NCBI RefSeq assembly: GCF_000003815.2
Contig: NC_049984.1
Span: 12,519,186 to 12,583,185 of the forward strand
Direction: 5' to 3'
Length of the DNA: 64,000 bases
Source of the DNA: Branchiostoma floridae
Taxonomy: Eukaryota; Chordata; Leptocardii; Amphioxiformes; Branchiostomatidae
The notes beneath the pieces were generated by a model. That model was not told where the DNA came from. It saw only the letters and a program-made list of their open reading frames with translations, and did no database searches. The translations under genes were made by a program, and so were the position numbers. Shown one piece after another: positions 3,108 through 43,347 of the stretch; within the stretch, counting starts at the first letter, position 1; every line of letters begins with the position of its first letter.

Positions 3108-5984
3108 CTATTGGGGATCATTGGTGGGCCCGGGGATCTCCCATGGCCAGTAGGTGTCAGGTAGGGTGGCCATAGGAGGCACTGGGCGTGATCTGTCCAA
3201 CTGTTCACTGGTAGGGATCTCCCATGGCCAGTAGGTGTTAGGAAGTGTGCGGAGTGGGGACACAGCATTTTGTTCTGATGTCTCACACAAAAATGTTGGT
3301 ACCGATGAGAGGGACGCCCTCCGGTGATTTCTGCGACTACTCTCACCTCTGACCTCCCATGGCCAGTAGGTGTTGGGTAGGGTTGGAATTGGTGACACTG
3401 GACGTGATCTGTCAAACTGTCCATTGGCGGGGACCTGACATGGCCAGTAGGTGTTTGGCAGTGTACGGACGAATGACACCACACTCTGTGGTACCTCAGT
3501 TGAGTTGGAGAGTGCGGGGAGGGAACCTGACCGTTGCATGTTGCGCCCACAGTCCTCTACGACTTGCCATGACCAATAAGTGTTTGGCTGTGCACCAGTA
3601 ACCTGCGTCATGTCGTCGAGAACATTTCGATGAACTTGGTTCTCGTTTGAGTGAGACAAACACCCTCCTGTCGTTGGTGTCACGTCATAACGTGTAGAGG
3701 GCGCTTCTGTTACATTTCTTATATTCATGTATGGTCTCAAGGCTTGGTCTTCGCGCAAGGATACAAAAGCCATAATCCCCTTTGTTCGATGAGCCCTCTT
3801 GCTTTGGCCGTCTTCCTCTACATGCCCGTAGAACGTTACGCGATGGGAGTTGTCGACTGTACCTCCTCCATACACACCTACATGTCCGACAGTTAAAGGT
3901 TTGTGAGGTTGTAGATATGTCGTCACGCTGTCGTGGTGAGTGTTGTACCTCTCCCCCGCCAGGAGCGTCAAGTCAGTGGCAGCGGCGTAGAACTGCAACC
4001 GATCATCATCGTTCTCAGCGATGCCGCCATTTGTTGGCTCAATGGAACTTAATGAAGCAGGTAGTGATCTAGAAGGTACTGATCCTTTCCGGACATTTCT
4101 GGTTGGGTTGGCGAAAGAAGGAAGAGGAGTTGACCTGGCTACAGCAGTAATATTATCGTCTGGAATTTCCCAGTATGTGTGCGGGAGGGCAGAGAGAGGT
4201 CGTCGTGTAGCAGAGATGACCTCATCCGGAATCTCGCAGTAAATGGCTTCGATCATGCTTAGGGAACAAGGCAGCGATCTACGAGAGACTTTGCGGTCAC
4301 CGTGTGAAATGCGGGAAATGTCCGGGAGGGAAGCCGACCTTGCCCGCCCAGATACTGCACGTGGCCTGTTGACATGAATGTCTTGCCTTAAAGAGCATTT
4401 CTTTACCAGCAACCACACCAAGATTACCAAAAACAGTGCTCCTAACACTAACGAAACAAATAAGTGGCCCATGTTTTGGTCAGGAAAACTCAGGGTAGTA
4501 GTGGTCGGTTGAGATGTCGTCCATGACAACGAGGTCTGTTGCTGCCCTGTCTGATGTCCCGGCAACGTAATATGTTGTCCTGACAACGCAGTCTGCTGTC
4601 CTGGTGTTTGGGACGTCAAACCGTCATCTTGGTCTTTCCAGATTTCATTAGAATCTGAGTACGTTTTGTTGAACATGTGTACACCATGGAGGACCAACCG
4701 GCTGCTGCTATCTTTCATGAGTAGAACGCATGTGACATTTTGAGTGGCGCTATCTGGGTTGTCGCTTCCAGCGTTTTGATTTTGTGTCCAATCGAAGGCA
4801 ATTGCAAGAATTTCCTTCCCCGATTTTCCTTCCAGAAAGTACATCAGTCGGAGATTCAAGCCGCCCGCTAAGACCAACGCTGGGCCAACAGCACCCCACG
4901 CCTGGCTGCATCGAACTTCATCCTCAACATACGGGTCACTTTTGACCAAGAAAAGAAAAGGTGCATGAGCTTTTACCTCTTTACCGTAAATGTCCCACGC
5001 CCTGCAGGGGTTGTTGTGGTGCTCAATAACATTACTGCGAGCGGAAGCGAAAGACCAACTGAACATCTGGTTGTCGGGGACGTCTTTAAAACAGAAAATG
5101 CGATTGGATACCTTAATAGCAGACACGTCATAGGCCACTCCAAGAGCAAGAGACCACGCTATGTCGTGTACGATGGTATTGTTACTATCAAAAGCAATGT
5201 CTGGTCCTGCGCCGATAATGCCGAGGTCAATGACAGAATCTAGCCCCCGGAACGCGCCTCCGTCCAAACGCGATAGACCATTTCCACCTAGTTGCAGTTC
5301 GTACAGCTTGGTTAGGTATTGGAAGGTCCCCGCGGTAATCACCTTGATGCAGTTCGACTCCAAGATGAGCTCAAACAGGCTGGTTAACCCGAGAAACCAT
5401 CCCGGCTCCACAGTGCGCAGCAGGTTACCATTCAGATACAGATAGCTGAGGTGAGGTAGGTCTTGGAAACACCCGGGGTCCATTCGTACTATCAGATTCA
5501 TGGACAAGGTCAGCGAAAAAAGGTTAGTCAAGCCGGTGAACCAGCTCTGTTTGACATGGGTTAGTCTGTTATAGGATAGGTCTAACATGCCCATAGCCGT
5601 GAGACCAGCCAAGGCATTGTCTTCAATATCCGTGATCTCGCCTTTTTCTAGAGCCAGAACAATGATTCCCGAATGGTTTGTTATTGTTGTAGCCGACAAA
5701 ACTCCGAATGGATACCCCCTTATTTCCACTATTGTATCATTTACATCCAAACATGGTATTGACGGAAATGGCGCACGGTTGGATGTAGCAATACTTCCGT
5801 TTAGGTCATTGCAAATGATCCATGGTGTGTCATGGATCTTGTCCATTGACGTCACCCCTAGTTTGTTAGACGTCACGTTCTCGGGGACATTTTCCGTTTC
5901 TTCCCTACAATGAAAGAGGCAAAAGGCTTCTGAAGCTGCACAGGTGGACATTAAGGTCAAGAGGAACAACATGGCTGGCTTCAT
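3108..5984 (-). CDS. Single-exon leucine-rich-repeat transmembrane receptor with repeated LPxTYW cytoplasmic motifs (958 aa)
   Basis: One uninterrupted 958-codon frame. Residues 1-20 form a signal peptide (MKPAMLFLLT...). Residues about 105-260 hold roughly six LRRs of the LxxLxLxxN type (LDLSYN, LYLNGN, LQLGGN). A cysteine-containing extracellular region follows, then a Q/T-rich juxtamembrane stalk (455-500) and one hydrophobic segment at about 507-527 followed by basic residues. The intracellular tail of about 430 aa is unusual. It carries YCEIPD near 582, then six [LQ]P[HND]TYW motifs near 600, 799, 842, 869, 914 and 941, most continuing as PWE[IV], plus a YMNI motif near 752 that fits the pYxN type bound by Grb2-like SH2 domains. 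Several RSLP/RSGSLP serine motifs recur. I infer a cell-surface recognition receptor with a modular phosphotyrosine-type tail; ligand and pathway are unknown. The absence of introns contrasts with every host gene nearby and could reflect retroposition or a single-exon LRR family. I do not recognise a named orthologue. Confidence 0.9.
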   Translation of the reverse strand: MKPAMLFLLTLMSTCAASEAFCLFHCREETENVPENVTSNKLGVTSMDKIHDTPWIICNDLNGSIATSNRAPFPSIPCLDVNDTIVEIRGYPFGVLSATTITNHSGIIVLALEKGEITDIEDNALAGLTAMGMLDLSYNRLTHVKQSWFTGLTNLFSLTLSMNLIVRMDPGCFQDLPHLSYLYLNGNLLRTVEPGWFLGLTSLFELILESNCIKVITAGTFQYLTKLYELQLGGNGLSRLDGGAFRGLDSVIDLGIIGAGPDIAFDSNNTIVHDIAWSLALGVAYDVSAIKVSNRIFCFKDVPDNQMFSWSFASARSNVIEHHNNPCRAWDIYGKEVKAHAPFLFLVKSDPYVEDEVRCSQAWGAVGPALVLAGGLNLRLMYFLEGKSGKEILAIAFDWTQNQNAGSDNPDSATQNVTCVLLMKDSSSRLVLHGVHMFNKTYSDSNEIWKDQDDGLTSQTPGQQTALSGQHITLPGHQTGQQQTSLSWTTSQPTTTTLSFPDQNMGHLFVSLVLGALFLVILVWLLVKKCSLRQDIHVNRPRAVSGRARSASLPDISRISHGDRKVSRRSLPCSLSMIEAIYCEIPDEVISATRRPLSALPHTYWEIPDDNITAVARSTPLPSFANPTRNVRKGSVPSRSLPASLSSIEPTNGGIAENDDDRLQFYAAATDLTLLAGERYNTHHDSVTTYLQPHKPLTVGHVGVYGGGTVDNSHRVTFYGHVEEDGQSKRAHRTKGIMAFVSLREDQALRPYMNIRNVTEAPSTRYDVTPTTGGCLSHSNENQVHRNVLDDMTQVTGAQPNTYWSWQVVEDCGRNMQRSGSLPALSNSTEVPQSVVSFVRTLPNTYWPCQVPANGQFDRSRPVSPIPTLPNTYWPWEVRGESSRRNHRRASLSSVPTFLCETSEQNAVSPLRTLPNTYWPWEIPTSEQLDRSRPVPPMATLPDTYWPWEIPGPTNDPQ

Positions 5985-6047
5985 CTTCCAGTTATAACGT
6001 TTCTAGCAGAAAGTCAACAGAAAACGTGTATACGTCACAGCGCAAGA

Positions 6048-6556: not shown

Positions 6557-6889
6557 TTACATTGAAGATTGACTGCAAGATTCTAGATGAATTGAATGTG
6601 ACATTGTATGCTATTAAGTCATTTAATTGCTGTTCTTGGATCCGTCTTATTGAAATTCTTTAACTATCCTACAATTATTTTAACCTCTTTATTTATCAAT
6701 TCGGAGGTTTTGTTAAATAGCTGCTAAACTCTAGATTCCGATTCAGTCACTTGTCTAGATTGCTTGACGATTGATTATCTAGACACTGATTGTCTAATCA
6801 TTGACGATTGATTGCAATTGTCTAGATTGTGAAACGACAAGAGGGGCGAGTAGAACAGAAAGATACATTCTATACAAATATACAAATAT

Positions 6890-7450
6890 CCTGACTCCCG
6901 GGAATCGAACCCGGGCCGTCAGATCACAAACCTAGAAGCGCAACCGTTTCGGCCAAAAGCCGGACAGGCATTTGGCATAGTTGGTTGGCGCTACTTGAAC
7001 TTCCACTGTTACAATATACTAGAGGCGAGTAGAACAGATTTTACGCAATGCTCGCTCCCGGGATTTGAAGCGCGACCTATCGCGCCGAACGCGGACAGCC
7101 AAGCTCCCAAAACCAAGCACCCAACCGATTCGGCCCAAAGCCTGACAGGCATTTGGCATGGTCGGTTGGCGGAGCTTGAACCTCACTGTTACACTACTCC
7201 CCCTTTTCTTTTCAAGATTCGTCCTCGAATCTAAGAGTTCGGCATCCTCTATCCTGTTACTCACACAGGGTCGGCATGGGAACCAGTGAAACACTAGAGG
7301 CGAGTAGAACAGTTTTACCCCAAGCTCGCTCCCGGGATTCGAACCCGCGACCTATCGCGCCGGACCAGGACAGCCAAGCTCCCCAAAACCAAGCACCAAT
7401 CGCCAAGCTCCCAAAACCAAGCACCCAACCAATTCGGCCAAAAGCCTGAC
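6890..7450 (-). repeat. Cluster of tRNA-derived SINE copies
   Basis: Three related segments (about 6840-7015, 7019-7200 and 7290-7450) share GGCGAGTAGAACAG, a T-arm-like block and GGCATTTGGCAT/GCTTGAAC tails. On the minus strand the first reads TGGCCGAAACGGTTG (A-box-like) and GGGTTCGATTCCCGGG (B box with a perfect 5-bp T stem), as in Pol III promoters of tRNA-derived SINEs. The copies are arranged head to tail. A related fragment ending CTTGAACCCCACTGTTACAT lies near 13337. The body does not fold as a complete tRNA and copies diverge, so a functional tRNA gene is unlikely. Confidence 0.65.
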
Positions 7451-10400: not shown

Positions 10401-10553
10401 TTTCACGACTTCTAGATTTGCACATATTGCAATCAGGATGTTAGCATATTAGTGATCGTTGCCCACTTGTCATATGGAGCGAAACTCTATCTTTTAGTTA
10501 ATAAAAAAAGAGCAAAAGCAGCACAAATGCCATACACCCAATAAAGATGGTTT
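7451..10553. other. Gene-poor AT-rich interval up to the transposon
   Basis: No open frame above about 85 codons has credible protein character. The interval contains a copy of the GTCTGA/CTGAAACG repeat (7759-7790), a small hairpin at 9268-9308, and a repeat bounded by two direct copies of GCCGTTGGGG..CGGGCGTT (9386-9405 and 9601-9620) enclosing two ATTGGYTGAYAGCTT motifs. Nothing else is supported. Confidence 0.5.
9268..9308. repeat. Small hairpin, 17-bp arms
   Basis: AGCAGAGTACCGTCAGT pairs with CCTGACTGTACTCTGCT across a short ATTTATT-like loop, with one mismatch near the centre. It may be a foldback fragment; no neighbouring gene explains it. Confidence 0.5.
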
Positions 10554-10562
10554 GGCCTGCTG
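10554..10562. repeat. Left target-site duplication (GGCCTGCTG)
   Basis: Nine bases immediately outside the left terminus, identical to 20424-20432 outside the right terminus. The 9-bp length matches Mutator-superfamily insertions. Confidence 0.9.
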
Positions 10563-11417
10563 GGGTCAGACTTTTTACCGGAAAACACAGGAAAACACAT
10601 TTAAACACCGGAAAACACCGGAAAACACATGAAGGAGTGAATAATCTACTGAAATACAGTATGTTTTGATGAGTAAACATGACAGGTCGCTATGTTTTGC
10701 CACAGAATAATCTACATATGGCCCTGGAATGAAGAAATCGTCAGAAAATGCATGAGACGACGGGCCGGACCGACGACACCCGGCGGCCATGTTTGTTTGT
10801 TTAGCGGGGTCAGATACTTTCACAACAAGACAGCTGATATCTACCGAATTTCAGTGCAAAAATCTGTTATATATTGGCATAAATATAATATATATGAATC
10901 TACTCGGATTGTGATAAGAATCTATTTTCTGTATTTCTTAATAAAGCTTGCTTCTTCTAGCCGTCAACGTTACATAATTTTGCACAAGCAGCACGTCCTG
11001 AGTCCGCCAAATTACAAATAAAGCGGTGTCCTACGTGCTTTCAAGAGTGTATATTCATTCCACAGACACACATTTCCCTAAGTGGTTTCTCACTAGATGT
11101 GGCAACTTTACCCAGTATATCGAAGAAAGAAAACTATTATATTGTCTGCTCAATTTCTCCGCGTAGTGTGTACGTTGGGTTCCTGCGTTGGGTCAACAAT
11201 GGCGGGTTTTCCTACCCAAGCTATACCGTGATGCTCTAGCGGCCCGACCCGACCCGGGCGGGATTTGAGCGCGAAGTTCTATTCGTGTTGAGGGGAGAGT
11301 GCTGATTCGCAAAATGATCGGGTCAGGTCCTAATATGCCGTGTCTGCATTTTTTTCGGCGTAATTGTGTAACTCCCTGTACATTTTGACGTTCTTGATGG
11401 ATGACAAGCATTATCTT
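10563..11417 (+). repeat. Left terminal inverted repeat of the MULE
   Basis: About 855 bp, inverted relative to 19229-20423. The outer 70 bases include a mini-array of GGAAAACACC-type units. A 109-codon open frame inside (10692-11021) also appears, partly frameshifted, in the right copy; the two copies are kept similar by the TIR relationship, so I do not call it a gene. Relative to the right TIR, the left copy has only about 25 bases between GGCGTAA and GACGTTCTTG where the right has about 360. Confidence 0.9.
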
Positions 11418-11535
11418 ATTTTAAAAACACATGCATATTGTTGTTTTAGGGAATTAAAGTCAAACCCAACCTGTCTAGAAATAGCCAACACTTAAGTATT
11501 GGAGTAGAATATTTTCATAACTGTCCATGTCACTG

Positions 11536-11635
11536 NNNNNNNNNNNNNNNNNNNNNNNNNNNNNNNNNNNNNNNNNNNNNNNNNNNNNNNNNNNNNNNNN
11601 NNNNNNNNNNNNNNNNNNNNNNNNNNNNNNNNNNN
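11536..11635. other. Assembly gap (100 N)
   Basis: Exactly 100 undetermined bases, a standard scaffold gap, just inside the left TIR of the transposon. Confidence 0.99.
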
Positions 11636-12541
11636 CCCATTGTTATATTTATCAATAATTTTTATTATTCCGAACGAACGACAAAGAACTACCATCATCA
11701 AATTACGAATCAGCTGCCACAAACTCCGTGTGGAAGAAGCCGAACAAATGTATTAGAATAGTTTTGAATAGAACCCATGTTTTAGATTAGTCGTACAAAC
11801 CGTGTATACTGTATTACGACCTTTCGTATTTATATGCCTGTATTTATCCCGATAGGGCATGAATGTGCAATAAAGGGTATTATCATCATTAATAAACGTT
11901 ACCCGTAATTCTGAATTCTAAGTGTTTCGAAAGCTACTAGCATGTAAGGCAGATGCCGTTACCGAGTAGGTAAAGTGAACTAAATGGAAACCCTAGTATA
12001 CATATATTCTTTGTACTTTGTTATCGCCCCTTTGTCATTGTATTGACTTTTGTGTATCTGTACTTGTATAGTAACTTTGTTCGAGTCATGTACAGTAGTT
12101 TCGTTGTGTCAATAAATTACGTCCATAACTACTAGAGTAACACACTGGGTCTTCCACTGGCTGATCCACGGAACATTAGGCACTGTTGAATACTTTTAGT
12201 ACTTTAAATAGTCTTAAAGCCCTTCCTTTATACACGCTATGGGTTGACTATATATTTATTGTGTTATAATGAACAGAGGATTAAAGCCTCTTCGCCTATT
12301 GTAAGCCATTAAACGCACGCGTGTAGTACAGGTCATAACGTAAACAATGTCCAACATGTCAATCAATTATAATGTTAATTAGGAGGCTTGGATGCAAATC
12401 AGGCGTTTTCACAGCGTATATAAATTCGAACCTCTCAAACCCTGGGTCATTCAGTGGACTTGATCTTCACTGTACGAACATCTCTAAACTCCCGACGAGT
12501 TTTAGTATCTTCAGTGTTCCCTCTTCGCGCCTATCAACGAC
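11636..12541. other. Transposon interior upstream of the transposase, including a non-LTR-like tail
   Basis: No open frame with protein character is seen. Around 11830-11890 the sequence GGGCATGAATGTGCAATAAA followed by GGGTATTATCATCATT resembles the 3' tail of a CR1/L2-type non-LTR element (short 3'-terminal tandem repeats after an AATAAA-like motif). The region just upstream of 12542 should contain the transposase promoter, but I cannot pick a core motif with confidence. Confidence 0.4.
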
Positions 12542-15500
12542 ATGGCAGAGTTTCCGTGCGGACAGTGCAATCAGGATGCGGACACGTCGCCATCGATCAA
12601 TTGCGATCAGTGCGATCAGTGGATTCACCGGTGGGTGTTTTTAAAGGCGCTTTTAATGATCGTTCATTTAATCGATTATATGTCTGTCGATGTCCGGATT
12701 TAACATAACAGTATCATGTTATAATATTAGCGCATTGTGAGTGAGGCAGATTTGCAATTTTGGTGGCATTCATAATTACTACAAATGTGTAGCTGCTCCG
12801 TCACATCCCCACTTAGCACGCGAGGATGTGTTGCGATTATTACATTTAATAGTATTGGAGCGTTCCTGTAATTTAGGACCAGGTAAAGTGAAAGTAAAGC
12901 ACAAGGAAGAAAGACGTAGAAAGTAAAGAGGCAATAACCCTGACCGATTCATCTGCTTTGAGACTATCTGCAATGTATCTGAAAGGTGTTTTTACATTCC
13001 ATGATCCAGTAAGTGCGTGCCAATGACACCGGCCATATGGGCGGAGTGGCAGACAGCTGATCTCAAGTTCTTGTGCCCCCGCTGTGTGAAGCCAACAACC
13101 CCTGGGGAAGGACCGTACGACATCAGGGCAGCTTTGAAAAGGTCGGTTGTAAAGAACAATTATTGACGACTAATCATGTTGTGCATTTTGGCACCATAGA
13201 ACATTTGCATCTAAGCACAACCTTGGCCTATCGATACTGTATTGGTACATCTGAAGATCTGACTACGTTCGGCGATTGATAGACCACATAACCTCACCAT
13301 GAAGTTCAATTTACACCGGGTTGAACAGGTAGAACGCTTGAACCCCACTGTTACATGTAGTTGTATATAATGGTTGTAATCTTGTTTCACATAAAAATAG
13401 TGGCTTAGGAAAACTTTAGGCCATGTTTACTCTATTACCTTTTGTATATGGATGGCATCCAAAGTTGTTCAACCGTACAAACCGTACACTTGCAAAAGGA
13501 GCAAACTATGGTGTATGCCATAGTTGCGAGCCGATACGGTTGCGGATATATACAACAAGACCGGGAGAGAACACGAGACCAAGTGATTTCAAAGTAATAT
13601 ACCGGGAAAGAAACAAAAATTAAAGTCTTCCTCTGCTAATTTACCGAGATAGCTTTGAGGTGGATCAGTTTTCGGTTTGCTGGTCTACACTTTTAGGGTC
13701 TTTTAGTTTCTTCTAGAATAGTCATTGCTTTTTCTGTAATGTACTACAAGTACTTTATGCCCGAACTACTTTGGGTCAAGTGGATCGCGGATTTATAAAT
13801 ACTACGTTCTGCGTAAGATGCCAGAGCGCAGAGGTGCAAGTACTGACGTTCAAAGTTTCCGGATATTTGGTTGTTTGAAAGACACTAGTCCTGCTCATTA
13901 CTTCAACCATGGCACATGGGGAAAGGCAAGTGTTCGGGGACCCCGCTGGGCTTGTACCGCCCCTTCACACTTCGCAGGTACTTCAGAATTGTCAGTGAAA
14001 TAAATTGATGAGGGGAGGGGGGTATCAGGGTAAACAAGTCTCTCATATGCAAATTTGGCGCTCGGCCGCCTGTAAAACGGTAATGTCTGCAAAAGGTCTG
14101 TGATAGCATTTACTAAGACTGTTGGCCAGGCCGCTGGCGGGACTGCGCTAGGTGATTTCGTCGGCGACTGAAGACGGTTGGCCCGCCGATGTCATTTATG
14201 GTCAGCGAGGAGTTTAGCCCGGGTGAAATTTCACTGGAGTGATATTTAGGTTAGCTCGATAGACAGGCATACATTTGGCCCCTGAATAACCTGGGCCGGT
14301 GGCACAAACCACTTCAAAAAAGTCAAGCATTCAACGAAAAGTATATCTGATTCAACGTTATAAAGCACTCTAGAGTTCGGTGACCTCATACCTCCCAGTG
14401 TGTCTAGCGTCCACCAGCTCCTATTGAAGTAAAACACTTGTTTTTAATATGAAGGATAAATATATCTAGTATGCACAGAATTAAAGTTTGACATTGAAAG
14501 ACAGGTGTCATCATACATTTCAGTTTACTTTCTTTAACTCTATGGCCACACCAACTTAATTTCTTGCTTCTCGGATTTGCTGACCCATTTTTTTTCCGAT
14601 TTTGATAAAAAATTAGTCCCAAGAAAAAAATACTCTTATGTCCCAAATAAACGTACCAGGACATTTATCTTTTTAAGCTGCAAAATCCACCCGGTACGTT
14701 CTTTGATTTATAATTTTGGACGGTAATGGCCATTAGGTTTATCATTTATTTTGAAAATTGGCGCTTTGATAACCAGGACCCTCGAAATATTGAGAGTTTT
14801 TTTCTGCCCATATTTCCGCACTATTTTTGTTCAAAATTCACTGTTATTTATGCGTATGTGGCAGATTTGGATCATTATAATGATGCCGTAAACGCGTGAA
14901 AATGATTTTATTTCGGGGTAATGATGGATACAGAATACCATTTGTATTTTCAGAGTGTTGATTTTTAAAAAAGATCGTAATATTTTCTCATTTTAGCGGT
15001 TAGAGTCCATTCCAAGTCACCATGAGGGTTTTTACTTAGGTTTATACTATAGTCGGATATTTTGAGCAATTGATATAACTACTCTAGCGTTGTATGGATA
15101 GGAATGCACGTCAATGTTACTTTAGTGTTATGCTAAATGTAACACTGAATTTACCGTTAAGCGTTACCGGGCCTCCTGAATTTACCGTTAAGCGTTACCG
15201 GGCCTCCTGAATTTACCGTTAAGCGTTACCGGGCCTCCTGAATTCACCGGGCCTCCTGAAAACATAGAGGATCCAATATTGTAATATGCAATAAACTTCA
15301 TTGTCATTGTCATTATTTAACAGTGCTTTCTGTATTTTTGGAAGTCTTCTAAAACCTCATATTGTGTCAATTAAAGGGTGGCAGAGGCAGCTGCAACAAC
15401 CAACATCAACCTCCGATCTGTGGTGAAACAGGAGCGCCTTCTGCTGAAGACATACAAGGTCACCCTGCCCCAACTGACAGAGAATCACGGAGCTGGGGAG

Positions 15501-17342
15501 GTGGACGAGACATCCGTTGGGATTCTACGCAACTTCCATCCCGCACTTCTGGAAGACTACAGGCCTATAGGGGTGCAAGGGGATGGAAACTGTCTTTATC
15601 GCGCAATCTCGCAGGGAATGTATGGTGTGCAACACCATCACCACCTAATCCGACTGCTGACCGCGCTAGAGATAGCCGAACACCCAGCCCACCATGATAT
15701 TCATCACCCCAACCACGTGGACCACATCAAAGACAGTCGACTTTTTCTGGCCGAGTACAACATTCTTCTGCCGGAAGCAGCCATTGAAGGAAAAGAGTCC
15801 TGTATGCAGCATATCTTTGCTGCTAGTGCTGCTTTGGGACTTTGCTTTGAAAGCTACTGCCCCCCCATGGTGCCATCGGAGTACATGTCACTGCCATACA
15901 CACGTAGAGTGTCAGGGCGAGGAGTCAGAACATCAAAAGGAGTAGCCTTCACATTGATGTGGACATCAACAAGTGTGGCCAACAGCTCAAGACACAGCAC
16001 AAGCCAGATGGCCACCCATTTGCACGGCAAGTCATCAGGGGTTACAACAAGGTAAGCCATATTTGCACGTCCTGAGGACCATTGACGTAGGACACCATAT
16101 TTCTTTAATTATAAATTTAATTGCACATTCATGTCATACTGGTTTAAAAGTACAGTACATGCATAAGTGCAAGAAGTAAATTAGTACATGGTGACAGGAC
16201 TAATCGAAAACATTTAAGGCACACCCAGGAGTATATTGTACAAGTACTCTAGATGCTGACCATATTTTGTGAAGTATATACCTGTTGTTTATTGGATTTT
16301 CCCCTGTTCACTCTTACAGGAAACAGTTGTCATCGTGTATTTTGATGAGCAAATACAGGATATGAAGAGATTCTGCTGTACGAGCATCCATGGGGAAAAC
16401 ACAGTCCTTGGAGTGGACAAGACATTCAATCTTGGACCATTCCATGTGACTGTGACAAATTTCAAACACTTGGCTGTAGTGCGTAGAGACACTGGGGAGC
16501 ACCCCATTTTCTTTGGCCCAATGTTTGTCCATGGGGGGTCCAAGACCGTAGACTATAGCGTATTCTTCGACCACATCCGTAGTGTGTTAGATAGCCCGCC
16601 ATCTATGCCAGTGGTGGGCAGCGACAACGAAAGGGCTCTTCGGACGGCCATAGGAAGAGCATGGCCGGGATGTCACCAGCTGTACTGCCATCGTCACATC
16701 CGCAAAAACTGTTCGGAGTATCTGCAACGCAAAGTTGGGATGAGTGATGCCGCAAGACAACCAGTTATCGATGCAATTTTTGGCAAGAACGGCATAACTG
16801 CAGCCACCAGCAGGGTAGTCTTCGAGGGGCGTCTTCAGCATGCAGAGGACCTCGCAGATGCAGGGAACTTTGGTCCATACTTCCGGGAACAAGTCAAGCC
16901 CCTACTACAGTCAAACTTCAACACCACCTCGCGTACAGACTTTCCAATAAAGACAAAATGGACAAACAACAATGCAGAATCCGCCAATCACATCCTAAAA
17001 GTCGCTGTGGGATGGAAACCGCAGTCTCTCCTTGGCCTGGTGCAGAAACTCTCTGAAGTAGTCAGAGGACAGTATCAGGAAGTTGAACGTGCAATCATTA
17101 ACACTGGCGAATACAAACTGACCGATGACTTCACTAGATTCAGAATTCACCGAGACACCTGGTGCACGCTGTCAGAGAAGGAGAGGGAGGCCCATCTGCG
17201 ACGGTTTGGTAAGGAGATGAAGAAGCCCAGGCGGCTTGTCATCAGCACAGATGGGAGAACAGGTGTGATGGTACCCTCCCACGGTGGAAAAAAGAAGGGA
17301 CAGGTCACCCGCAAAAGGGCAAACAGAACTAAAACGTTTTAA
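12542..17342 (+). CDS. MULE transposase gene: PHD finger - OTU domain - DDE transposase, four exons, one frame break
   Basis: Exons are 12542-12634, 13014-13141, 15377-16051 and 16320-17342, joined by in-phase introns (GTGTTT..TAAG, GTCGGT..AAAG, GTAAGC..ACAG). Exons 1-2 encode a PHD finger: CGQC, CDQC, WIHRWC (H-x2-C across the junction) and a final CPRC. Exon 3 encodes an OTU-type cysteine-protease start with GDGNCLYRAIS (catalytic D and C). Near 15905-15970 the reading frame shifts. The upstream frame runs on as TLMWTSTS, while the frame that joins exon 4 carries LHIDVDINKC; its upstream end meets a stop near 15905. The histidine-bearing C-terminal part of OTU is not visible, so that domain looks damaged. 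Exon 4 encodes the transposase core: VDKTFNLG (first D), GSDNERAL (second D), CHRH (C-x2-H) and NNNAESANH (E). The C terminus is basic and no SWIM finger is seen. Role: mobilisation of the enclosing element. The PHD finger could read histone tails at target chromatin; the OTU role is unknown. Confidence 0.8.
15146..15256. repeat. 31-bp tandem repeat, three full units plus a truncated one
   Basis: The unit begins TGAATTTACCGTTAAGCGTT and ends GGGCCTCC. Copies start at 15146, 15177 and 15208, and a shortened copy (TGAATTCACCGGGCCTCC) follows at 15239. Adjacent copies have no spacers. Confidence 0.9.
15270..15318 (+). repeat. Probable 3' tail of a non-LTR retrotransposon (TTCATTGTCATTG repeats)
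   Basis: TGCAATAAACTTCATTGTCA followed by further TTGTCA units resembles the short tandem tail that ends CR1-like elements. Only the tail is present, and no reverse transcriptase is seen. Confidence 0.4.
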
Positions 17343-17399
17343 ACATGTTGTTCCTATACAAATGTTTTCATCTTTTCATGTAATACATGTAGTAATAAT

Positions 17400-18875
17400 G
17401 GTGCTCTGTAACTGTTTTTTTTTTGTCTGTTGAAAACAGTTGTATTTTTGGGAATGGTACTCCCAGACTCCTTTACAGGGACCACTTGCTGTAAATTTAG
17501 TACCGTAACAAGTGGAAGTTGGACGGAAATTTTTTTTTTTTTTTTTNNNNNNNNNNNNNNNNNNNNNNNNNNNNNNNNNNNNNNNNNNNNNNNNNNNNNN
17601 NNNNNNNNNNNNNNNNNNNNNNNNNNNNNNNNNNNNNNNNNNNNNNTTTTTTGGGAGTGGTACTCCCAGACTCCTTTACAGGGACCACTTGCTGTAAATT
17701 TAGTACCGTAACAAGTGGAAGTTGGACGGAAAGTTTTTTTGTTTTTTTTTTTGTCTGTTGAAAACAGTTGTATTTTTTGGGAATGGTACTCCCAGACTCC
17801 TTTACAGGGACCACTTGCTGTAAATTTAGTACCGTAACAAGTGGAAGTTGGACGGAAAGTTTTTTTGGTTTTTTTTTTGTCTGTTGAAAACAGTTGTATT
17901 TTTGGGAATGGTACTCCCAGACTCCTTTACAGGGACCACTTGCTGTAAATTTAGTACCATAACAAGTGGAAGTTGGACGGAAAGTTTTTTTTTTTTTTTT
18001 GTCTGTTGAAAACAGTTGTATTTTTTGGGAATGAAACGTTTTAAACATGTTGTTCCTATACAAATGTTTTCATCTTTTCATGTAATACATGTAGTAATAA
18101 TGGTGCTCTGTAACTGTTTTTTTTTTGTCTGTTGAAAACAGTTGTATTTTTGGGAATGGTACTCCCAGACTCCTTTACAGGGACCACTTGCTGTAAATTT
18201 AGTACCGTAACAAGTGGAAGTTGGACGGAAATTTTTTTTTTTTTTTTGGTCTGTTGAAAACAGTTGTATTTTTGGGAATGGTACTCCCAGACTCCTTTAC
18301 AGGGACCACTTGCTGTAAATTTAGTACCGTAACAAGTGGAAGTTGGACGGAAAGTTGTTGTGTTTTTTTTGTCTGTTGAAAACAGTTGTATTTTTGGGAA
18401 TGGTACTCCCAGACTCCTTTACAGGGACCACTTGCTGTAAATTTAGTACCGTAACAAGTGGAAGTTGGACGGAAAGTTTTTTTGTTTTTTTTTGTCTGTT
18501 GAAAACAGTTGTATTTTTGGGAATGGTACTCCCTGACTCCTTTACAGGGACCACTTGCTGTAAATTTAGTACCGTAACCAGTGGAAGTTGGACGGAAAGT
18601 TGTTGTGTTTTTTTTGTCTGTTGAATAGTAATAATGGTACTTCCAGACTCCTGTACAGGGACCACTTGCTGTCTGTTGAAAACAGTTGTATTTTTGTAAA
18701 AGTAATAATGGTACTTCCATACTCCTGTACAGGGACCACTTACTGTCTGTTGAAAACAGTTGTATTTTTGTAAAAGTAATAATGGTACTTCCATACTCCT
18801 GTACAGGGACCACTTGCTTTGTCTGTTGAAAACAGTTGTATTTTTGTAATAGTAATTATGGTAATTCCAGACAGT
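17400..18875 (+). repeat. Satellite array inside the MULE (~120-bp and ~75-bp units)
   Basis: At least twelve units carry the palindromic core CTGTTGAAAACAG followed by TTGTATTTTTGGGAATGGTA. Starts are near 17425, 17754, 17879, 18000, 18127, 18240, 18370, 18495, 18617 (degenerate), 18672, 18745 and 18820. A higher-order duplication is visible at 18031-18120, which repeats 17331-17420, from the last codons of the transposase (ACGTTTTAAACATG) through the start of the array. The last units are shorter and carry GTACTTCCATACTCCTGTAC. A 100-N gap falls in the array, so copy number is not reliable. Confidence 0.92.
17547..17646. other. Assembly gap (100 N) inside the satellite array
   Basis: Exactly 100 undetermined bases flanked by poly-T on both sides. 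The repeats on either side suggest collapsed or missing units. Confidence 0.99.
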
Positions 18876-19228
18876 GGAAATTTGCCTTTAATCACCGGAG
18901 ATCTGGTTGTTCACTAATAAATGACATTTGAATAAAGACATTTGAATCTGTGTTGATTTTGAGTTTATTGTTATTGACAGTTTATACAGAAATACTGTCT
19001 TAACTTTATTGTTGTGACACATACTTCCTAATAATCTGGTTTGGACCATCGTAAATTTGGGATCATTGGAACTTATTTTGGGACCACTTTTTATGGGACA
19101 ATAGGGGAAAGCTGATTTCGAGACATACATAGTAACATACCTCCAAGAAATCCGTCCAGCCGTTCTTCAAAGGTACAATGTAATGAAATCCTTTTAACAA
19201 GGAAACAGCAACATGCATTTTTGTCAAA

Positions 19229-20423
19229 TAAGATAATGCTTGTCATCCATCAAGAACGTCAGCATAAATAGGAAATTGCACTCATGAGAAATATAAATAT
19301 AAATTTATTATTTTTTATGAATCCAAGTCAATTGCCCAAGGCACCCAACACATCGTCACACTCACGCCCCACAATCAGTTTTTTTTTCACGCACCGGTAA
19401 GTGCTTTCTTGTTTGACTTATTTGTCGGGCTATCTTTTTTTACATATTTCCCATTGAGATGCCAATTACCGGGGGCCCCAATCTGCATAATGCAACCAGC
19501 GTGGGTCCTTTGTTTACAATCGGATCAGTTTGTAAACACTCACTTCTTTAGGGATTTGCGGCCTTCCACGAGCACTGGCGATTATAGGTTCGCGATTTCC
19601 AGCATATAGGGACCAGGTTCTTACGCCGAAAAAAATGCAGACACGGCATATTAGGACCTGACCCGATCATTTTGCGAATCAGCACTCTCCCCTCAACACG
19701 AATAGAACTTCGCGCTCAAATCCCGCCCGGGTCGGGTCGGGCCGCTAGAGCATCACGGTATAGCTTGGGTAGGAAAACCCGCCATTGTTGACCCAACGCA
19801 GGAACCCAACGTACACACTACGCGGAGAAATTGAGCAGACAATATAATAGTTTTCTTTCTTCGATATACTGGGTATAATTGCCACATCTAGTGAGAAACC
19901 ACTTAGGGAAATGTGTGTCTGTGGAATGAATATACACTCTTGAAAGCACGTAGGACACCGCTTTATTTGTAATTTGGCGGACTCAGGACGTGCTGCTTGT
20001 GCAAAATTATGTAACGTTGACGGCTAGAAGAAGCAAGCTTTATTAAGAAATACAGAAAACAGATTCTTATCACAATCCGAGTAGATTCATATATATTATA
20101 TTTATGCCAATATATAACAGATTTTTGCACTGAAATTCGGTAGATATCAGCTGTCTTGTTGTGAAAGTATCTGACCCCGCTAAACAAACAAACATGGCCG
20201 CCGGGGATGGCGTCGGTCCGGCCCGTCGTCTCATGCATTTTCTGACGATTTCTTCATTCCAGGGCCATATGTAGATTATTCTGTGGCAAAACATAGCGAC
20301 CTGTCATGTTTACTCATCAAAACATACTGTATTTCAGTAGATTATACACTCCTTCATGTGTTTTCCGGTGTTTTCCGGTGTTTAAATGTGTTTTCCTGTG
20401 TTTTCCGGTAAAAAGACTGACCG
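19229..20423 (-). repeat. Right terminal inverted repeat of the MULE, with a ~360-bp extra segment
   Basis: Segments 19622-20423 and 19229-19260 together match the left TIR in inverted orientation. The intervening 19261-19621 is absent from the left TIR. It is AT-rich and I recognise no element in it, so it may be an insertion here or a deletion on the left. A poly-A/T-rich stretch near 19300 offers no clear target duplication. Confidence 0.88.
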
Positions 20424-20432
20424 GGCCTGCTG
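20424..20432. repeat. Right target-site duplication (GGCCTGCTG)
   Basis: Exact copy of the 9-mer at 10554-10562, abutting the right terminus of the transposon. Confidence 0.9.
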
Positions 20433-20782
20433 CATCCATCATTGCATGCATAAAATTTGCACATATGGCTAATATAATTAAACAAAACAATCTAGTTTTC
20501 ACAAATGTTCGTAGACAAATCAACTTATTAATATGCATTTGTTCCACTAGGACCAATTCATTTGCCCTAGTTACATATAATCAATTTCATTTGTCTACAT
20601 CGTTATTGGTATTGTTACTCTCTCTTCGCAGTGGGGTTGAATTGTGAGGAATACAGTTTGCGACCTGGTTTGCCTGGTAGAGGCTAGCAACTAGGCGCTG
20701 AATACAGGCTGCCATTACAGACCCTTGAGATTTAGCCCCGCCTGATAGGCAAGTGAATTTTAGAAAACTTGTCCAACCCTGG

Positions 20783-38700: not shown

Positions 38701-41700
38701 CCATTAGACACAAAGTTGCAAATAAACTTTCTTTGTTATTCTTTTCTGTGTTCTTGTAGGTTGGTGTCATCATCCAGCTTCAGTTTGAAGACTTTGCTCT
38801 TGAGAACCGCCCGGCCACTGATTCTGTCACTGTGTATGATGGGGATAATGAAGATGAGGTATTTATTAGTATCTAAATCTGTTTAGAGACCTGGCAAAAT
38901 TCATTGTTTAAGAAGCAAAGAAAGGTGTTTCTTGTAATGCTACATGTACTTGGATACTAGAAGCATTTGATGTTGGTGTTTTGTGCTTAAGATTGGAAAG
39001 GCACACGCCTGCTTGCCTTTATTTGGACCGTCATTATTCAGTGGAGACTTTAGCTGTGTAATCTGTTTTCCTCTCAAAGTACTGATGCAAAATTGATGCT
39101 GTCATGAAGTGACATTGATGTATGGAAGATTAATTAATTGCCTTTACTGGAGGAATAATTGAGACATGTTACTTGCTGTAAACATGAGGTGAAATACAGA
39201 CAGTGTTAATAAGCCTTTCCCCATCCTACAGGATGAGCTAGGTGTGTACTATGGCAGTAACCCTTCCATTGGAGAGATTGAGTCATCAGGGCCCCATATG
39301 TTGGTCAGATTTCGCTCCGACAGCTCTGGAACTAACAGGGGCTTTCTGGCAAGTTACCGCATCAAAGGTAATACACATGAAACTCAGTAGGGGGCATTTG
39401 TGATACACTTTTGAAACATCTTTTGAATTTACATCACAGTTATTAGCACAGTAAGTTATGAAAAAAAAATTGCAAGAAGTTGAAGCCCAAGGAATCAATA
39501 CTACAAATGCTTTTTGTTTTATATTGGGGTAGGAGGGAAAGGGATGTTTTCACGGTGTGTGAAGTTGGCAAAACATGTAGTTCAGAAATTCAGTACAATT
39601 ACAAGACACATTTGTGGTGTTATGATTTCATGATAGGAGGTCACTGTAAAACAGGAAAATAAAATCACAGTGAACATGACATGATTTCCAGTTATTGTAC
39701 ATCATGTGACAGCCATACACTGATCATGTGATAATCACATGCCTTGCAGGTCCTTGTGTAGGATTGCGACATCCATGTGCGGACCACAGCACCTGTTACA
39801 GCTCCGAAGACAGGTGCGATGGCATCTGGACATGCCCGGATGGCACAGATGAGAAAGGCTGTGGTGAGTATTGTATTATTGTTCTCAGACTTCATTATCT
39901 ATAGTTGACAGTATGTCAATGTATAATGGGCTATGCATGTATTTCATGATGAATGGTCATTGCTATCCTAGCTAGTTAGTTAGTTAGTTACAAAGTAAAT
40001 ATGGTCTACCAATTGAGCATTGCAGGAAATAAGTATAATTCTTTGACTACTGTGTTTTGCTTGACTTGACTTTTTTTACTTGACACAACTTGACTTCTGA
40101 AAAATTTACATGTACATGTAGCTCATGAATGAACAGGTGTGTAGTAGGCGTAACCATTAACTTTGAATTAACCCACCATGTTACATATGTATATGTGTGT
40201 TTGGGACATCTCTAACAGTGCACTCCTCAGGTGTGCACAGTTAGGATGTGAAGGAGTACATCAAACTTGGGAACACTTCAGTGGACGTCATTTTAGACAC
40301 GTTCTCATGGTGGCAGATATATGTGGCCTGGTGGAATTATGTGAGAGTGATGTTTTCCCTATCCCCAGATGCCTGTGGGAGTGGAGAGGTCCCGTGTGGG
40401 GGTCCCTCCAAGCGCTGCTACCCTGAAGAACACCACTGTAACGGTGAACCCTTCTGTGATGGAGGCAGGGACGAAACCCACTGTGGTAAGTTGTGTCAAG
40501 AAATTTAAGATACATAACACTGTTTTATGGCCATCTTCTGTTCTGCAGATTATGTTTTTGTTTTGTTTTGCATTGACCTGTAGGCCTAAGACACCTGTTT
40601 TGTACAGTATGTACAATCTAAATGGGCCAGACTATAAGGTTTGATCCATCCACACTGAGAAGGACCACTATCTTTATGTTAAATGTGGTAGGCTCAAGGT
40701 GTGGCTCTTCTCAAATGTGGAAGCTCCAACTTTATGTCCCATTGGAGAGAACTTCCCTAGCAAGAGCTAGGTACTCATTTTTTCATCGGACTCGAGTTAG
40801 AAAATAGGTGTAAAAAGGGGTTGGAACACAGAAGTTAACAACCTAGGTCACTTTACCACCTCCAGATAGTAGATAATCAAAACTTTCAAAATGAAATCTC
40901 TATCTGTGGTGATTATCTGATAAATGCTCTTTTATTCTAATATAGATCAGCTTTGCGGGCAGAATTTTGAACAACTTGTAACTCCCTCAATCCCCTCAAC
41001 ATAAGAGAGATAAAGACTTTAATTTGAATTTTGAGACAATGCTGCATACTGATATCTCCTTTGGGCATGCACCCATGGCCATAATTTGCAGTCTAGACAG
41101 ATTTTGTCTTCCTCATTTAATACTTTGGATGACGTCAAACTGGATCTTGTTATACGTTTACAATCCTCATGGCTCCCTATTAGTGCTTGCTACATCTGCT
41201 GGCTTCATAGTTAGACGTTCTCCCTGCTGATATGCCCCATGATATATGGTGATTGTATGCATGGATGTTGAATTTCTCTGTAGGAAGGAATTCTTTGTCA
41301 TCAGTCTTGCTTATTGGAGGTGTGACAATTTACTGTAGATTCATTTAGTTTTGCAGTGGACTTATTTTGCAGAACGAGGGAAAAGGCGGTGTTTACATTG
41401 TAGATTTACATTTGAAACAATTCTATCGTACAATAGTCTTACAAGGGAGACATATTCGTGGTATGATACAAAATTTGCAATGGAAAGGTAAGTGTGAAAT
41501 GAAAACCACAGTGAAAGTTTCCAGATTTACAGTACTGAGCCTTTCTGTTTGTTCCCCCAGACTCCTGCAGCCCTGCAGAAGGAACATTCCATTGTCGGAA
41601 CAGGAGGTGCATCTATGAGAAGTGGGTGTGCGACTCTCAGGACGACTGTGGGGACGGATCGGACGAGGAAGGCTGCAAAGGTGGGACAGATTATTGTGTT

Positions 41701-43347
41701 AGACTTACATTTTGGAGTAGATTTTTAGCTGGATCTAAAGAGCAAATGGCCCAAAATGTAACTAGAATACACATTTATATTGAGGAAATGCCATCCTTAT
41801 TGGGTAGTGCACATGCAGCAGTCCCCTGTAATACTTTGCCAGGCCATTTTCTGAGGAATCATCAGAAGAGTGATGAAAAACTGGAAACTCATGGGTACTC
41901 CCATGGTATCTTAGCAGTCCACCGGAACAAATTCGTAGCTTTTGGGCAGGACCGTGACTACATCCCCTAAGGGCACCAGCACAAATGTGACCAAAGCATT
42001 AGCAGGCTGCAGGTTATTAATGTTAGCTACAAAAGAGACAAAAAATGTCTCAAATGTGAGAGCTTTGCGGATGCCTTTCTACAGTGTACGTGTCAGAGAA
42101 AGTGATCACAGCTGCTGTGATTGGTTCCATCGTGTGTGGCCTGCTGCTGGTCATCGCCCTCGGCTGTACCTGCAAGCTGTACGCTCTCCGGCTGCAGGAC
42201 GATCCACGCTACCAGTCCACGTGAGTAAATACCTTGAATGATGTGTTACATCTTTAATGATATTTGTACTAAAATTTATAGTTTGTCTTACTGCATAACA
42301 CTTCTTTTTATTTTCTTAATATTCAGTCAAAATGCCTTTCTACCTGTTCATGTACATCTTCTAAAGAATGCTATTGCTACTTGTATTACAACAAGTACTT
42401 TCTAACTGTTATCATAATGGACCTGTGTTCTCTCCAGCCGGTTTGACACACCGATGATGCGACTGCAGCACGAGCTGAATCGCCGGGAGGCACCGCCCTC
42501 CTATCACGTCGCCGTGGCATCACATGGACCCCGGCAGTTTCAAGAGGCCCACACGGCATTCACCCAGCACGTGCAGGCGGCCATGAACATGAGGCCAGGG
42601 CGGCGGCTGCAACAGATGAGGCAGTTTCTACGCCGTAGCCGTAGCAGCGAGTCAACAAGCACCGCCCAGGCCGTCATCACAGGAGAGAGTCAGGAGCGGA
42701 TAGCGCTCACAGTCACTCGATCCAGCGAGAGCATGCAGAGTACGGTGAGCGACCGGGTGGAGGTCACCCGACAGGCGGATGGGTCGCTCAGAATCCGGGC
42801 ATCCATCAGCTCAGCAGGGAACTCGTCTGATTCCGAAGACACCGACAATGAAACAAACAGAATCATCGGGGAAAGCGATCCCCCCATGGGTGCAGCCGCT
42901 GCTGTCCCAGAGTTCCAAGCGCCGCCCATCAGTAAGACTGGTTTCCTGCCCCCCTCCCCACCCGTGTTTCCGCCAGTGAGAAGCATTGCTGCTCTGCCAT
43001 CCACATCTCGACAGGAGGAAGACCAGCAGAGTCGTGGTAGCAGAAGCTCCAGTGACTCAGAACTGTTGGATCTAGGGGCCGATGTGGCCAACAGCAGTGC
43101 TACTGTTGTCATCCACTCCAGCAGCCAACCTTTCTCCCTAAGATCCGCAGGAGATGGAAGAAGCTTTCAAGTTCATGAAGCGCCAAATCTCAACAGCAAT
43201 GGAGGAGATAGAAGTGATGACGGTGACACCAGAAGCTCTCGTTCTCAATCCATGGAGTCCGTCAGTTCGGAGGAGTCGGTAGGATTTCACGCTGACAGTG
43301 GGCAGCTGCCACTTCTACAGCAGACAGGAGAGGAGAGCTCCTGTTAG
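33856..43347 (+). CDS. LRP12: LRP12/LRP3-type CUB-LDLa receptor (13 coding exons, 849 aa)
   Basis: Exons: 33856-33946, 35138-35339, 35956-36170, 36551-36679, 37209-37367, 38062-38183, 38760-38858, 39232-39367, 39750-39863, 40369-40485, 41561-41680, 42085-42220, 42438-43347; frame is continuous (2550 bases). Order: signal peptide ([10 protein letters not shown]), CUB1 (about 35-169), LDLa1 ([14 protein letters not shown].., with [12 protein letters not shown]), LDLa2, CUB2 (about 266-384), LDLa3-5 (the last with [12 protein letters not shown]), one membrane span near 510-533 ([16 protein letters not shown], then CTCKLYALR) and a 310-aa tail with RREAPPSY and DTDNE motifs. This order and the membrane/RREAPPSY segments match vertebrate LRP12 and its paralogue LRP3, so the gene may be pro-orthologous to both. 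The family is endocytic, and the tail binds adaptors. LDLa modules start and end in phase 1, allowing exon shuffling. Nothing is broken. Confidence 0.93.
35709..35762. repeat. (TA)n microsatellite in an LRP12-like intron
   Basis: A nearly pure TA run interrupted once by CA, between coding exons 2 and 3. Confidence 0.95.
37879..38005 (+). repeat. Dispersed AGGTTTGAT repeat (copy 2)
   Basis: GGCCAGACTGTGAGGTTTGA, then TTTACACTGGTGAAGACCCC and CATGCTCAAGGTGTGG. Same order of blocks as 40624-40735. Confidence 0.5.
40624..40735 (+). repeat. Dispersed AGGTTTGATCCA repeat (copy 3)
   Basis: GGCCAGACTATAAGGTTTGA, then CCACACTGAGAAGGACCACT and AGGCTCAAGGTGTGGCTCTT. All three recognised copies are in the plus orientation within introns. 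Confidence 0.5.

Follow-up and report, generated by a model that had tools for sequence, protein, structure and literature searches.

The stretch of Branchiostoma floridae DNA analysed here is a 64-kb window (12.52–12.58 Mb of contig C6), and between its positions 10563 and 20423 lies an element that we read, at a probability of about 0.9, as a non-autonomous, internally deleted DNA transposon of the Mutator superfamily with a Rehavkus-like build. From the comparison with a 13,405-bp sister copy on contig C11 (L039 and L040), it is clear where the element begins and ends: the homology starts and stops at exactly those two positions, and none of it runs past the ends that an earlier note on this DNA had proposed. 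The same comparison reveals a large deletion within the transposase gene of the window copy.

Ends, target duplications and copies of the element

Comparison of the flanks found the same 9-bp target-site duplication, GGCCTGCTG, at both outer edges of the element (10554–10562 on the left and 20424–20432 on the right). Within these edges lie the terminal inverted repeats (TIRs), located by inverted-repeat search and alignment. The left TIR, of about 801 bp, occupies 10563–11363 on the + strand and has the end GGGTCAGAC, and the right TIR occupies 19621–20423 on the − strand, with an end that reads CGGTCAGTC inwards. The arms were recovered as two pairs of segments, 10564–10781 with 20205–20422 at 98% and 10779–11363 with 19621–20205 at 99%, and their near-identity, remarked on previously, is such that ~801 aligned bp contain 7 substitutions and a single 2-bp gap. 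A diverged inner extension of 62 bp follows the left TIR (11366–11427, + strand) and shares 84% identity with 19220–19281 on the − strand, where ~340 bp separate it from the right TIR. Apart from the two arms and this extension, no inverted repeat was found in the whole 64-kb window (14-base seed, 60-bp minimum).

When the genome (513 Mb in 431 contigs) was searched with the terminal 200 bp, at least 41 matching places were found, a lower bound since only the best 40 of 153 candidates were scored; 35 of the 41 end loci were fetched, and six other listed ends were left out. Both ends could be located in 21 copies, namely the window copy, the 13.4-kb copy on C11, seven copies of 2.5–6.3 kb and twelve of 0.28–0.91 kb, while four loci that yielded a single end (L062, L064, L065 and L066) were left out of the duplication count. 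A target duplication flanks every one of the 21, being 9 bp long in 17 copies, 8 bp in two and 10 bp in two. As a control, each left flank was set against right flanks taken from the other copies; the longest match was 3 bp, and none of the 420 mismatched pairs reached 4 bp. Chance is therefore excluded as the source of the duplications. The target sequences of the 21 copies show no common motif, as judged by eye only. The inverted termini, the near-identical arms of ~0.8 kb and the exact 9-bp duplication put forward in the earlier note are thus confirmed by alignment and by the flank survey of the 21 copies, and its expectation that other copies exist likewise holds.

That the structure arose by chance or by segmental inverted duplication, with no transposon involved, is in our view next to impossible. 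Other routes to long inverted arms do exist, but the 8–10-bp duplications at all two-ended copies, their common termini and the transposase exons inside the element argue strongly against such an origin. The family as a whole ranges from a ~13-kb element to deleted and MITE-like copies (resembling miniature inverted-repeat transposable elements) down to 0.28 kb, all of which have kept both ends, and the seven copies of 2.5–6.3 kb are mostly pieces of the 13.4-kb element.

Some further features of the copies were observed. In all 21 copies the first base differs between the two ends, which gives G..G or C..C on the + strand. Relative to this asymmetry, the interior of the window and C11 copies is oriented one way and that of the seven 2.5–6.3-kb copies the other way, as if it had been flipped once by recombination between the TIRs. 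At L061 (C15:7319000–7321500), three recognisable ends lie inside 0.9 kb, which suggests a nested or rearranged insertion.

The interrupted transposase gene

Four exons were read in the window copy, all on the + strand, with their splice sites inferred from the sequence and its relatives rather than from transcripts. Exon 1 (12542–12630, identical in the C11 sister) and exon 2 (13010–13141) encode the first and second halves of a PHD finger, which is recognised on the inferred spliced exons (PF00628, E 4e-7, 30.3 bits, cut-off 24); the match of exon 1 alone falls under the cut-off. Exon 3 (15377–16051) carries an OTU domain with a GDGNC motif (PF02338, E 3e-5, 25 bits, cut-off 23.3), the C-terminal part of which is lost where the deletion joins this exon to the end of a later one. 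Among solved structures, the OTU exon matches OTUD1 (4bop, E 1e-4) and, weakly, OTUD7B. The last exon (16320–17342, identical in the sister) encodes the DDE transposase domain of Mutator-like elements (MULEs; PF10551, E 3e-8, 34.4 bits, cut-off 27.6), with its D residues at 16416 and 16623, a CxxH motif at 16686 and the E residue at 16977.

The catalytic spacing in the last exon is D68D117E with the CxxH motif, and the aligned relatives retain the D, D, CxxH and E residues wherever their sequence covers them. In the arthropod MULE clades, D1–D2 distances are 60–76 and D2–E distances usually 120–135 (PMC13359780); the distance of 68 thus lies inside their range and that of 117 just under the usual one. 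A DDE domain with a CxxH motif supports placement in the Mutator superfamily, as judged from sequence, and together with the 8–10-bp duplications it bears out the superfamily assignment made in the earlier note. An AlphaFold model of the DDE exon, built from a 7-row alignment, was poor (pLDDT 58, pTM 0.44). A comparison of this exon with solved structures returned two kinases at E ~0.9, which were taken as chance matches.

At 15995–16003 (+ strand), alignment with the C11 sister places the deletion junction, where 9 filler bases replace 3,265 bp of the sister; these 9 bases do not occur in the replaced sister stretch on either strand. Lost with this DNA are the middle exons and the last part of the OTU domain. 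If exon 3 is spliced to the last exon at the inferred sites, a stop follows shortly behind the joint and the DDE exon falls out of frame. The element is therefore not complete, contrary to what had been claimed before, and a complete autonomous MULE with everything needed for movement between its TIRs has become a very improbable explanation. Its ends, TIRs and duplication are indeed intact, and its DDE exon is open and does not differ from that of the sister, but the OTU end and the middle exons are lost and the frame is broken.

The direction of the change is given by two relatives, L041 on C17 and L042 on C8, which share 42% and 40% identity, respectively, with the DDE exon. In each of them the OTU domain, the middle region and the DDE domain are contained in a single open frame, of 970 codons in the C17 relative and 995 codons in the C8 relative, and a matching PHD-half exon lies upstream of the frame in the C17 relative. 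Since both relatives possess the middle region, it is ancestral and was lost in the window copy; in this respect, therefore, the C11 sister preserves the earlier condition and the deletion belongs to the window copy. Both relatives and the C11 sister also have a His motif (NHF or DHF), which falls within the stretch missing from the window copy; we take this motif and GDGNC to be active-site residues of the OTU domain. The combination of OTU and DDE domains is found in three families of the same genome at ~40% identity, and the PHD half in two of them.

The C11 sister has suffered damage of its own. Inside its middle coding region sits a MITE-like insertion of 433 bp with inverted ends TAGGGCTGGGTA and an 8-bp duplication, GTCTCATG, at a site where the relatives have one unbroken frame. 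Unless this insertion is spliced out, the sister gene is not intact. No intact transposase gene was found in either the window copy or the C11 sister. Identical OTU and DDE exons were found in these two copies only; elsewhere, the best match to the DDE exon is a 54-residue piece at 91% identity, and many of the remaining matches contain stops. Numerous degenerate matches to this exon, up to 78% identical and mostly with stops, were also seen at one contig end (C9, 0.33–1.71 Mb), as if older relatives had gathered there.

The parent element would have been ~13 kb long and would have encoded one spliced protein, composed of a PHD finger, an OTU cysteine-protease domain, the middle region and a MULE-type DDE transposase, with a minisatellite between the gene and the 3′ TIR. 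By analogy with Muta1, the DDE transposase of which cuts and reinserts in yeast with 8- or 9-bp duplications (PMC5225508), the transposase from a source copy would bind the long TIRs, excise the element and insert it at a stagger of ~9 bp, and host repair of this stagger would then produce the 9-bp duplication. For the loss of ~3 kb from the window copy and the gain of its filler, the most likely routes are gap repair that was aborted following excision and end joining, either before or after the copy landed at the present site; filler DNA at the joint fits both. Deleted copies would be moved in trans, so that the window copy would depend on a transposase supplied from elsewhere.

Age, gaps and surroundings of the insertion

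Over four long alignment blocks, from which the greater part of the minisatellite is excluded, the window copy and the C11 sister differ by 16 substitutions in 8,618 columns, a divergence of ~0.19%; a further 39 columns are gapped. On this measure of sequence divergence, both insertions are young, although gene conversion between the copies could have lowered the figure further. The TIRs of a cut-and-paste element travel with it, so insertion does not render them identical. Of the seven substitutions, three (TIR positions 1, 8 and 78) are shared with the sister and hence older than either insertion; the other four, like the 2-bp gap, are seen in the window copy only. Dating by TIR divergence was accordingly rejected. 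Thus the recent insertion suggested in the earlier note stands, on the divergence from the sister, while its use of the TIR differences as a measure of age does not.

A search for an empty site with the left flank gave one other match, at 69%, ending 159 bp short of the insertion point, and with the right flank other matches start at least 264 bp into the flank (39 rows; the best 40 of 816 candidates scored). Among the matches scored, then, the DNA that directly flanks the element has no second copy, and neither an orthologous locus nor a paralogous empty site was seen.

Close to the left end lie subterminal 10-bp repeats in 5.4 copies (10580–10633, + strand), which are possible binding sites for the transposase; 5.2 copies of subterminal 10-bp repeats lie at the right end (20358–20409, − strand). 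A minisatellite with a unit of ~122 bp (17424–18625, + strand) precedes the 3′ TIR and is followed by another with a 74-bp unit (18624–18872, + strand). Two runs of 100 N are present, one at 11536–11635, where the C11 sister has ~0.82 kb, and the other at 17547–17646, inside the ~122-bp-unit minisatellite. Since both are assembly gaps, the true length of the element is not the 9,861 bp of the assembled sequence. A scan of 10401–20700 against Rfam gave no match at the gathering score. Elsewhere in the window we have noted a 964-codon open frame with leucine-rich repeats (3111–6002, − strand; LRR_8, E 8e-59), a predicted tRNA-Thr (tgt) gene (6889–6964, − strand) and an open frame with a low-density lipoprotein (LDL)-receptor class A domain (41539–41967, + strand).

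Possible kinship with Rehavkus and meaning of the element

In the description given by a 2019 survey (PMC6446971), Rehavkus elements have a 9-bp duplication, TIRs of 26–400 bp, a PHD finger and a minisatellite before the 3′ TIR; their listed hosts are arthropods and annelids, and they are treated as an outgroup to the MULEs or a member of them. In Repbase, Rehavkus was later placed in MuDR (PMC4455052). The window element shares with this description the 9-bp duplication, the long TIRs, the PHD finger in the transposase, the minisatellite before the 3′ TIR (17424–18872) and a MULE-like DDE domain. In contrast, its TIRs of ~800 bp lie outside the range of 26–400 bp, it has an OTU domain, and its host belongs to neither of the two listed groups. 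Because of the TIR length beyond the published range and the OTU domain, we have named the element Rehavkus-like and have not filed it as Rehavkus.

Other known elements share some of these features. According to Table 1 of the same survey (PMC6446971), the MULE transposase of MuDR-6_HM, from Cnidaria, also includes an OTU ('Ovarian Tumour') domain; in contrast to the window element, neither a TIR nor a zinc finger is given for it there. Muta1 of Aedes aegypti (PMC5225508) is likewise described as an animal MULE with a DDE transposase and 8- or 9-bp duplications without apparent sequence preference; it differs in having been shown to be active in yeast, and the likeness noted here is one of features. 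The foldback elements FB4 and Tetris of Drosophila are reported as non-autonomous, with long TIRs, 8–10-bp duplications and, in Tetris, tandem repeats inside; unlike in the window element, no transposase was found for Tetris, and FB4 is moved by an unknown one (PMC8277862, PMC4079207). The earlier note had considered the TIRs very long for an animal MULE. They are long, yet the TIRs of arthropod MULEs can reach 1,193 bp, even if most measure 20–95 bp (PMC13359780), and lengths of ~700 bp in FB4 (PMC8277862) and of as much as 1,735 bp in Tetris (PMC4079207) are also on record.

A distinct possibility, to which we give a minority of our confidence, is that the element belongs to another MULE clade, for example one of the OTU-bearing MuDR-6_HM type, and gained its PHD finger and minisatellite independently of Rehavkus. 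Table 1 of the survey lists an OTU domain for MuDR-6_HM but none for Rehavkus, the domain matched in Pfam is the general MULE one, and the TIRs exceed the reported Rehavkus length; on the other hand, the PHD finger, the minisatellite before the 3′ TIR and the 9-bp duplication make up just the combination that the survey describes for Rehavkus (PMC6446971).

Several points weigh against our reading of a deleted, Rehavkus-like transposon. The kinship was judged from anatomy, compared by published description, and that description, as far as it goes, has shorter TIRs and no OTU domain. The gene model depends on inferred splice sites, an intact gene was not found, and transposition was not seen. 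In addition, the MULE matches of the C17 and C8 relatives fall under the Pfam cut-off (22.3 and 23.4 bits against 27.6), as does the OTU match of the C8 relative, so that their tie to the family rests on alignment with the window exons. The 3,265 bp also include the 433-bp insertion in the C11 sister together with its 8-bp duplication; if this insertion postdates the split of the two copies, the true loss may be ~2.8 kb.

In the open-licence literature, no paper was found that joins a PHD finger, an OTU domain and a transposase for Mutator elements, nothing was found on a MULE with an ovarian tumor domain transposase in invertebrates, and on a lancelet MULE transposase only the 2019 survey was found; for MuDR among the DNA transposon superfamilies of amphioxus, the one paper found dealt with a spider genome. 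The lancelet is among the animals with the most reported superfamilies of transposable elements (39; PMC4438587), and Repbase is stated to hold 265 lancelet entries (PMC4455052); given this number, the family may already be recorded there.

Taken together, the transposase exons, ends, TIRs and duplications described here are what the survey, which mentions that MULEs had been reported from Branchiostoma floridae before, could not find in the lancelet, having reported no transposase there (PMC6446971). One gene unites traits that the survey lists apart, the PHD finger with the minisatellite and the OTU domain. The OTU domain may act on ubiquitin-type tags and so protect the transposase or alter host silencing. 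We regard the window element as a variant within a known type of element; it does not constitute a new type of system. We suggest tentatively, at somewhat short of even odds, that it represents a Rehavkus-like lineage outside arthropods and annelids which carries a PHD finger, an OTU protease and a MULE transposase in one protein, and which has moved very recently.

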